A model generated the notes under the pieces. The model was not told where the DNA came from and did not search any database. It saw only the letters and a program-made list of their open reading frames with translations. Positions 45,480 to 47,723 of a stretch of DNA of 64,000 nucleotides are shown here, in pieces. The stretch's first letter is position 1. Each line of letters starts with the position of its first letter. The DNA comes from Melioribacter roseus P3M-2 (lineage in GTDB: Bacteria > Bacteroidota > Ignavibacteria > Ignavibacteriales > Melioribacteraceae): positions 558,001 through 622,000 of the forward strand of contig NC_018178.1 in assembly GCF_000279145.1 (NCBI RefSeq). Reading direction: 5' to 3'. The translations under genes and the position numbers were made by a program.

Positions 45480-46115
45480 TTGGGGAGTTCTTGGTTTTGG
45501 AGTTCAACGTTCTTCGTTTTGGGGTTTTGGAGTTCAACGTTCTTCGTTTTGGTGTTCAGGGTTTGGGAGTTCAATGTTCTTCGTTTTGGAGTTCAAGGTT
45601 TGTCATTCAAAGTTATACAACAAAGAACGCCTGCACTTCCGCACGCCCTCGTCTTTGCGAGGAGTCCCGCCAACGGCGGGACGACGAAGCAAACTCTAAT
45701 GAGTGTATGAGATTACTTCGCCCCGCTTTCAGCGGGACTCGTAATGACGGACGCCGGATTGAACAGGTCTTTGCGAACGAGCGGAGCGAGTGAAGCAAAC
45801 CCTAAACAAAACACTGTCTTTGCGAGGAGATCCGACGAAGACGGAACGACGAAGAATCTGCGGATGACTTTTGATTAATAATTAATTGATTGAGATACTT
45901 CCCCCGCCGTTGGCGGGGTCAGTATGACAAATGACGGATTGTGTAGGTCTTTACGAACGAGCGGAGCGAGTGAAGCAACCTCTAATGTATACCAGTGAGA
46001 TTACTTCGTAATAACGTTACAGACTTAAATAAATCTTTGCGAGGAGTCCCGCCACCGGCGGGACTCGTAATGACAAATGACGGATCGGATAGGTCTTTGC
46101 GAACTAATCCGTTTA
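45480..46115. repeat. TTCAACGTTCTTCGTTTTGG tandem and modular hairpin repeats (cluster 8)
   Basis: 45480-45610 is a tandem of about four GAGTTCAACGTTCTTCGTTTTGG-like units with variation. It is followed by the CTGCACTTCCGCACGCCC piece of the composite element, then TTTGC-stem units with GTCCCGCCAACGGCGGGAC, ATTAC-stem (about 45709-45748) and ATACT-stem (about 45893-45930) units. No gene lies here. Confidence 0.8.
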
Positions 46116-46120
46116 TTTAC

Positions 46121-47431
46121 TCACCCTCCGTTTAATTGATTTTCCAGATAAAGTTCATAAGCTCCGAGGTCGAGAAATCCGTGTCCCGACAAATTAAACA
46201 AAATCGTTTTTGATTCTCCGGTTTCCTTGCATTTCAATGCCTGTTCGACCGCTTCTTTAACGGCATGAGAACTTTCGGGAGCAGGCACTATTCCTTCGGT
46301 TTGAGCGAAGATTTGAGCTGCTTTGAAAACTTCGAGTTGTTCGTAAGCAGACGCCGAAATAATGCCCTGATTATAAAGGTGAGATATCGAAGAAGCCATA
46401 CCGTGATACCTCAATCCGCCAGCGTGAATTTTGGGCGGTATAAAATCGTGACCGAGAGTATACATTTTCAATAAAGGCGTCATGCCCGCTTCGTCGCCGA
46501 AATCATAATCGAACTTGCCTTTTGTCAAAGTGGGACACGAGGCGGGTTCGACAGCAATAATTTCGAGATTCTTTCTTTCGCCGCTCAGTTTGTCTTTAAT
46601 AAACGGGAAGGCGATGCCGGCAAAGTTGCTGCCGCCCCCGGCACATCCGATTACAATATCGGGATAGTCGTCCACCATTTCCATCTGCAATTTTGCTTCC
46701 TCTCCGATTACGGTTTGATGCAGCAGAACATGATTCAAAACGCTGCCCAGGCTGTAGTTCGTATCGTCCCTTTGAACGGCGACTTCAACCGCTTCGCTGA
46801 TTGCAATGCCGAGCGAGCCAGGAGAATCGGGATCGGCTTCCAGTACTTTTCTGCCTGCGTTCGTTAAATTAGTAGGACTCGCGTGAACCGTAGCCCCGAA
46901 CAATTTCATAAACGTTTTACGATATGGTTTTTGATTATAGCTGACTTTTACCATAAAGACTTCGCATTCCAAACCGAAATGCTTGCACGCCATCGATAGC
47001 GCGCTGCCCCATTGACCGGCTCCGGTTTCGGTAACGAGTTTTTTGATTCCGGCTTTTTTGTTGTAATAAGCCTGGGCGTACGAGGTATTTGTTTTGTGGC
47101 TTCCCGTTGGATTTGCGCCTTCGTATTTAAAATAAATTTTTGCGGGCGTGTCGAGTTCTTTTTCCAGATTAGCGGCGCGAATTAACGGCGTCGGTCTGCT
47201 TATTCTATATAGATCTCTTACTTCGTCGGGAATTTCGATATACCTTTCGGTAGAAACCTCCTGCATAATCAAATCCATCGGAAAGATAGCCGATAAATCT
47301 TCCGGACCGGCGGGTTGTTTCGTGGCGGGATTTAACGGCGGGTCCATCGGAACGGGCAAATCCGCAAGAATATTGTAATAATGAGTTGGCATTTTAGATT
47401 GTTCGAGAAAAACTATTTTGTTGTCCGACAT
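46121..47431 (-). CDS. trpB: Tryptophan synthase beta chain, TrpB2 type
   Basis: 436 residues, longer than TrpB1 as is normal for TrpB2. The pyridoxal phosphate lysine is in [13 protein letters not shown], the phosphate-binding loop is [11 protein letters not shown], and [10 protein letters not shown] and [11 protein letters not shown] are further TrpB2 marks. It makes tryptophan from indole (or indole-derived intermediate) and serine in the cytoplasm. No trpA or other trp gene is beside it. A GGAGG site precedes the ATG, and the 290-base leader encodes a tryptophan-rich peptide and a terminator, so expression is likely controlled by attenuation. Confidence 0.92.
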
Positions 47432-47481
47432 TTTTTAATAACCTCCGATTTATTAGTGAGAAAAATCTAATCCCGTAAAAC

Positions 47482-47518
47482 AAAAAAGCCGTGAACGGTT
47501 CTACCATCCACGGCTTTT
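47482..47518 (-). terminator. Attenuator terminator upstream of trpB2
   Basis: On the minus strand AAAAGCCGTG and CACGGCTTTT form a 10-base stem around a 15-base loop, followed by TTTTTTG. It lies between the Trp leader peptide and trpB2, 51 bases before the trpB2 start. The loop segment GGAUGGUAG (47501-47509) can pair over 9 bases, with two G-U pairs, with CUGCCGUCC (47544-47552) in the leader, which gives a candidate antiterminator. Confidence 0.85.
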
Positions 47519-47540
47519 CGATTGCAAAATATTTAAAGTC

Positions 47541-47615
47541 CTAGGACGGCAGAGAGGAATATCTCCACTGCCACCAGAACAAGTTAACTTTAGCGATATT
47601 TAATTTTCCGTTCAT
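47541..47615 (-). CDS. Tryptophan leader peptide (attenuator)
   Basis: A 24-residue frame starting ATG at 47615 and ending TAG at 47541-47543, with sequence MNGKLNIAKV... and the end FWWQWRYSSLPS. Three tryptophan codons (TGG TGG CAG TGG, 47565-47576) sit in the 5' arm of an RNA hairpin (GGCAG with CTGCC, 47548-47572), directly upstream of the 47482-47518 terminator. That is the arrangement of a classic ribosome-mediated attenuator: a ribosome stalled at the tryptophans would block the hairpin, free its 3' arm to pair with the terminator loop, and allow read-through into trpB2. Confidence 0.8.
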   Translation of the reverse strand: MNGKLNIAKVNLFWWQWRYSSLPS

Positions 47616-47723
47616 TTGAATGCAAAGATAAATTTTAAGAATTCAATAGTCAATAAAAAATATCAGGGTTCGAGTAAAAATTACTCTCCCCCCGACCACC
47701 CTCAAACAATTATTATGGAATGA

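Follow-up and report, generated by a model that had tools for sequence, protein, structure and literature searches.

A probable ribosome-mediated tryptophan attenuator in front of a stand-alone trpB2 gene of Melioribacter roseus and its relatives

The window analysed here is a stretch of 64,000 nucleotides from the genome of Melioribacter roseus (3.3 Mb, single contig), a member of the class Ignavibacteria. Its minus strand carries, at 46121..47431, a gene for a TrpB-like PLP enzyme of 436 aa; in the closest named relative of this genome in the collections, a Melioribacter roseus MAG, TrpB2 is 96% identical. The protein scores above the curated cut-offs of both NF009057 (741 bits) and TIGR01415 (683 bits), does not reach the TIGR00263 trpB profile, and is encoded outside the trp operon, which places it in the TrpB2 family. 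Downstream, about 680 nt pass before another ORF begins on this strand, so that trpB2, the gene taken here as the regulated one, is monocistronic. Between RtcB and the 3' end of trpB2, positions 45491-46110 of the window are repetitive, with repeats of 'gttcttcgttttgg' and of 'gtctttgcgaggagtcccgcc'.

All of the features named in an initial annotation of this DNA were recovered in place upstream of trpB2, on the minus strand. A leader ORF at 47541..47615 encodes the peptide MNGKLNIAKVNLFWWQWRYSSLPS in 24 codons followed by TAG, and contains the run TGG TGG CAG TGG at 47565..47576, exactly as the annotation had proposed. Counted to position 47514, 26 nt separate it from an intrinsic terminator at 47482..47518, which consists of an 11-bp GC-rich stem (47488-47514, sequence GCCGTGGATGGTAGAACCGTTCACGGC read from 47514 to 47488), an A/U extension, and a run of six U (47482-47487), and which gives a match of 78.4 bits with the covariance model R1 considered below. 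A further 50 nt lead to trpB2, whose Shine-Dalgarno sequence CGGAGG and start codon lie at 47429..47447. A putative promoter of the Bacteroidota type occupies 47623..47653 (TTG ... TATCTTTG); its TAnnTTTG element, which we take to be the consensus of such promoters, lies at 47623-47630 and ends 7 nt 5' of the leader ATG. Of 28 relatives, 14 have this element no more than 30 nt before the leader start (in 13 at a distance of 4-8 nt), whereas shuffled sequences give a mean of 0.6 and a maximum of 3. Given this short distance, the mRNA may be nearly leaderless.

The 134-nt region comprising leader and terminator folds at -49 kcal/mol, as compared with -28.3 +/- 3.7 kcal/mol for shuffled sequences (z -5.7), with a hairpin spanning the Trp codons; fold and sequence thus bear out both the hairpin and the strong terminator of the initial annotation. 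Four segments can be distinguished. Segment 1 (47563..47572), the 5' arm of a pause or anti-antiterminator hairpin, overlaps the Trp codons. Segment 2 (TCTGCCGTCC, 47544..47553) is formed by the last leader codons, abuts the stop codon, begins 11 nt past the last Trp codon, and may pair either with segment 1 or with segment 3. Segment 3 (GGATGGTAGA, 47500..47509) pairs either with segment 2, in a 10-bp antiterminator helix (47544-47553 with 47500-47509), or, through its stem part, with segment 4. The 9-base pairing described by the initial annotation (47544-47552, CTGCCGTCC, with 47501-47509, GGATGGTAG) is exact, but segment 3 lies in the 5' arm as well as the loop of the terminator, and not in the loop alone.

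A trpB2 gene is present in 82 of 164 genomes of the order, and upstream DNA was read for most of these 82, together with 80 loci from named genomes. This yielded 36 distinct leaders that have a Trp-run ORF at the equivalent place, with WWW, WWWW or W-x-WWW, and behind it a terminator with the pattern GCCGTGRATRGY...CACGGC-U. Within the named-genome set, 20 of 21 trpB2 loci of Ignavibacteria (95%) have a Trp-rich leader before the gene; among the other ORFs of 200 aa or more in the same loci, the figure is 13 of 217 (6%). Across 160 genomes of the order, R1, the covariance model of the element, gives strong matches (E<1e-6) in 36; of these matches, 35 lie directly upstream of trpB2 and one is cut by a contig end, and there are no others; the Melioribacter roseus genome has a single match (E 1.3e-11). 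Weaker matches (E 5e-4 to 0.1) were left uncounted, and three of them (G007, G002, G011) sit directly before trpE, which suggests that the trpB2 and trpE attenuators may share a general form.

Loss of the leader or replacement of its Trp codons, looked for in relatives, was seen only in L139/L035. There the trpB2 gene is 89% identical to the query, the leader ORF is lost and a terminator-like hairpin with an enlarged loop is kept: a natural case of leader loss. In more distant parts of the order, many trpB2 genes lack a leader. Trp leaders followed by terminators, of different sequence, also occur before trpB2 in unrelated lineages, with antiterminators of 13 bp in L074 (KSB1), 11 bp in L069 and 12 bp in L109, and a weaker case with 6 bp in L093 (Caldithrix). 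In 16 more distant members of the order (L016, L017, L018, L163-L165, L167, L169, L170, L172, L173, L175, L177, L178, L180, L184), a Trp leader stands before trpB2 and a terminator is not visible; these leaders have conserved ends such as HTWPWRR, SWWPPRGL and AWWWLSC before the stop codon, and Rho-dependent or translational control is possible. At two loci (L044, L046), the trpB2 leader lies directly behind an apparent tRNA gene 3' end with no visible promoter between them, and may be co-transcribed with the tRNA.

The pairing scheme was evaluated on an alignment of the 36 distinct leader sequences, with 500 shuffles and slid helices as controls that leave the kinship among these sequences in place. 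All three helices beat every one of the 500 shuffles in paired cells, double changes and covariation score, and all are clearly above the slid controls. In the terminator 3:4, 97% of cells are paired, with 12 double-change cells; the antiterminator 2:3 has 89% of cells paired, 32 double-change cells and 5 pairs with compensatory changes; and the hairpin 1:2 has 86% of cells paired, 29 double-change cells and 3 pairs with compensatory changes. Since part of segment 2 encodes leader codons, the covariation of 1:2 and 2:3 is also subject to codon constraint. The terminator lies outside coding sequence, and alignment column 93 changes in step with its partners in 2:3 as well as in 3:4, a pattern that coding constraint alone would not produce. 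Antiterminator duplexes are also more stable with their own partners (mean -18.2 kcal/mol) than with permuted ones (-14.1 kcal/mol, 0/500), and in each of the 28 leaders tested, 8-15 nt separate the last Trp codon from the start of the 2:3 helix. The mutually exclusive helices 1:2, 2:3 and 3:4, whose covariation in relatives the initial annotation had named as a check, are supported by compensatory changes.

When the complete leader was folded at equilibrium in three ribosome states, ON and OFF were not separated, and the terminator was favoured in most sequences even with a ribosome at the Trp codons, so that the switch must work during transcription. In folds made before segment 4 exists, the mean probability of 2:3 is 0.98 with a stalled ribosome and 0.13 with a ribosome at the stop codon, a result that follows in good part from the masking geometry imposed. 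The locus combines a Trp-codon ORF before the gene, exclusive covarying helices, Trp codons within segment 1 and a stop codon close behind segment 2. As Trp codons, three helices, stop placement and linkage to trpB2 are all conserved, the trp-type attenuation logic first read from this one locus is strongly supported.

A plain terminator of the upstream transcript beside a chance ORF, without any regulation, would account for the strong terminator sequence, and a 24-codon ORF is by itself unremarkable. The comparative data already contradict this reading, to which we give practically no credence: the Trp run and its distance to segment 2 are conserved, covariation is three-way, the arrangement is kept at trpB2 in 35 genomes, and Trp-rich leaders are rare before other genes. 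It is also very improbable that the leader is a protein-free riboswitch or a protein-binding leader in the style of the trpB motif RF04312, with an incidental ORF. RF04312 is indeed the best Rfam match at the locus, but no part of the leader is better conserved than its Trp codons, which lie inside segment 1, and at all 30 loci of RF04312 itself a Trp leader ORF stands directly before the motif.

The leader might instead encode a Trp-sensing arrest peptide of the TnaC kind, in place of a run of slowly decoded Trp codons, as could be suggested by the partial conservation of the C-terminal residues (R/N..SLPS or SLLS) that follow the Trp run and by the WPWRR or SWWPPRGL ends of the terminator-less leaders, a third family. 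However, the conserved C-terminal codons are segment 2, so that RNA constraint explains their conservation, and the Trp codons differ freely between leaders in how many there are and how they are spaced (WWW, WWWW, WRWWW, WWQW), which fits sensing at the codon level. Moreover, arrest by free Trp would turn the gene on at high Trp, the wrong direction for a Trp-making enzyme, and we hold an arrest peptide to be very unlikely too. By far the most probable reading is that the element is a classical ribosome-mediated transcription attenuator which senses charged tRNA-Trp and turns trpB2 on under Trp shortage.

In such an attenuator, RNA polymerase would start a short way 5' of the leader ORF. Under shortage of Trp-tRNA, the leading ribosome would stall at TGG TGG CAG TGG and cover segment 1, leaving segment 2 free to pair with segment 3 once this is transcribed; the 2:3 helix would then block the terminator 3:4, and trpB2 would be transcribed. 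When Trp is plentiful, the ribosome would reach the stop codon directly behind segment 2 and mask this segment, and in the absence of translation 1:2 would form instead. In both situations 3:4 would form and transcription would end before trpB2. The layout and the precedent of E. coli trp both point to Trp shortage as the condition that turns trpB2 on.

The window has no Rfam match at gathering score, and no T-box is found among Rfam matches up to E 10 in 47400-47700. Trp_leader (RF00513) and RF01692 have no gathering-score match in the window, in relatives or in trpE leaders, and the trpE leaders have no Rfam match. The Bacteroid-trp motif RF01692, which we presume to be a probable Trp attenuator of trp genes, does not match the trpB2 leader or 11 trpE leaders of relatives. 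Weinberg et al. 2010 (PMC2864571) list RF01692 as a cis-regulatory RNA candidate from Bacteroidetes, and Seliverstov et al. 2005 (PMC1262725) predicted actinobacterial attenuators for trp operons and trpS, among them 'trpB2A' of C. diphtheriae. With E. coli trpL (RF00513) and the proteobacterial and actinobacterial trp attenuators, the window element shares a short leader peptide with adjacent Trp codons, the pairings 1:2, 2:3 and 3:4, a stop codon that masks segment 2, and an intrinsic terminator before the gene. Unlike these, it stands before a monocistronic stand-alone trpB2 in another phylum, has no sequence relation to them, and has its leader start only a few nt behind the promoter element. 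The logic is ordinary and the place, a stand-alone trpB2 in Ignavibacteria, is new; in agreement with the initial annotation, which knew of no description for this group, we found no paper in the open-licence literature that reports Trp attenuation for Ignavibacteria or for any stand-alone trpB2.

The nearest Rfam family is RF04312, which reaches 27.3 bits at the locus, its best match genome-wide, and 37 bits in L004; it was rejected as the family of the trpB2 element, these scores being far under its gathering score of 59 bits. Narunsky et al. 2024 (PMC11109978) published it as a strong riboswitch candidate but were unable to rule out a classic attenuator. We sampled 30 RF04312 loci from one Bacillota order (L258, L263-L291; motif start at about locus position 1501). 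All 30 carry an ATG ORF with Trp codons that ends 9-27 nt before the motif, typically in ...SWQNWRR (...WQ[NS]WRR) before the stop codon, and 27 of 30 have at least two Trp codons among the last 12, against a mean of 0.06 and a maximum of 1 of 30 in shuffled sequences. An extra stem joins the stop-codon region with the P1 5' arm, own partners beating permuted ones in 500 of 500 cases, and of the 11 downstream proteins tested, 9 are TrpX and the other 2 TrpB. Like the trpB2 element, RF04312 is associated with Trp genes and has an upstream Trp leader ORF, a hairpin with an antiterminator in its 3' shoulder, and then a terminator hairpin; unlike it, it is found in Bacillota, mainly before trpX transporters and canonical trpB, and its leader ORF ends before the described motif. 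Trp leaders in all 30 loci, the extra stem and the downstream trpX and trpB genes indicate that RF04312 is probably itself a Trp leader-peptide attenuator, as judged from one order of the family's range, which would be the likely answer for this orphan riboswitch candidate.

Downstream of the first terminator, three designs were observed among relatives. In the first, shared by the window copy, L004, L033 and L034, nothing further follows and there is no segment 5. In the second, 15 distinct leaders (L005, L006, L036-L039, L041-L046, L141, L148, L150), from closely related genera and hence representing few independent events, carry a segment 5, GYCGTGAAY. It includes a 9-nt complement of terminator arm 4 (GTTCACGGC), which none of 200 shuffles equalled in any of the 12 leaders tested, and 7-10 nt complementary to the ribosome-binding site of trpB2 (GGTTCA, immediately 5' of the ATG). 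The energy needed to open this site is 2.45 kcal/mol higher when the terminator has formed than when the antiterminator has, the corresponding differences in the other two groups being -0.56 and -0.35 kcal/mol. L040 has lost both complementary halves. The third design, in 15-16 leaders, has a second terminator whose 5' arm (segment 5) is complementary to arm 4; here 4:5 forms before segment 6 is made, and the full-length state usually favours the second terminator.

We see roughly even chances that, in these sister genera, a longer chain relays the position of the leader ribosome beyond the first terminator. In the second design, Trp starvation would lead from 2:3 to 4:5 and leave the ribosome-binding site free, and Trp excess would favour 3:4 as well as pairing of segment 5 with the ribosome-binding site in any read-through transcript, so that dual control of trpB2 transcription and translation is possible. 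In the third, 4:5 would have to disarm the second terminator; some relay is likely, since an unconditional second terminator would silence the gene. In the trp leader of B. subtilis, the TRAP protein is the sensor and acts on the terminator and then on the ribosome-binding site. The analogy, one signal acting at these two levels in turn, concerns only the sister genera with segment 5, where the sensor would instead be the leader ribosome. If true, these genera would have a five- or six-segment relay attenuator, which is testable.

The same genome encodes a complete trpEGDCFBA operon (L032 3771-10280), 2.6 Mb from trpB2. It is preceded by an attenuator of its own (L032 3603-3760), with the leader MMNLKSTYNMKNRNHWWWWRSVIPVISVIT, a 12-bp antiterminator (CTCAGTGATAAC/GTTATCACTGAG) and a terminator (ACCCTTCTTAG..CTGAGAAGGGT-U). 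A Trp-rich leader ORF precedes trpE in 29 of 30 relatives, mostly with a terminator ACCCTTCTYAG..CTGAGAAGGGT. Genes similar to trpE or trpG adjoin trpB2 in only 1 of 80 trpB2 loci, within the flanks examined. Among 18 other places in the genome with TGGTGG(N0-3)TGG, a pattern that leaders with two Trp codons escape, no short leader ORF was found beyond those of trpB2 and trpE. The initial annotation had placed trpB2 alone under its own attenuator: the attenuator is there, but the Trp signal is not private to trpB2, since the trp operon has a Trp attenuator too, and trpB2 would be part of a shared Trp-starvation regulon rather than the sole gene so controlled.

The in vivo role of bacterial stand-alone TrpB2 is debated, between indole scavenging and O-phosphoserine-dependent Trp synthesis. 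In T. kodakarensis, TrpB2 is described as taking part in indole salvage as well as in the synthesis of Trp (Hiyama et al. 2014, as cited in PMC11085991), and TrpB2 enzymes as being O-phosphoserine dependent (Busch et al. 2014, as cited in PMC11917138). As to the earlier proposal that indole salvage is regulated by Trp charging, a Trp-codon attenuator does stand before trpB2, but the salvage role itself derives from TrpB2 enzymes elsewhere. The genome encodes two enzymes of the tryptophanase / tyrosine phenol-lyase family, one of the tryptophanase subfamily (PRK13238, 710 bits, under the tryptophanase equivalog cut-offs) and the other a tyrosine phenol-lyase, and an indole source is therefore possible. 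The attenuator would make the stand-alone trpB2 answer to the same signal, Trp starvation, as the trp operon, and this common signal argues for a role of TrpB2 in Trp supply, and not in serine or indole breakdown.
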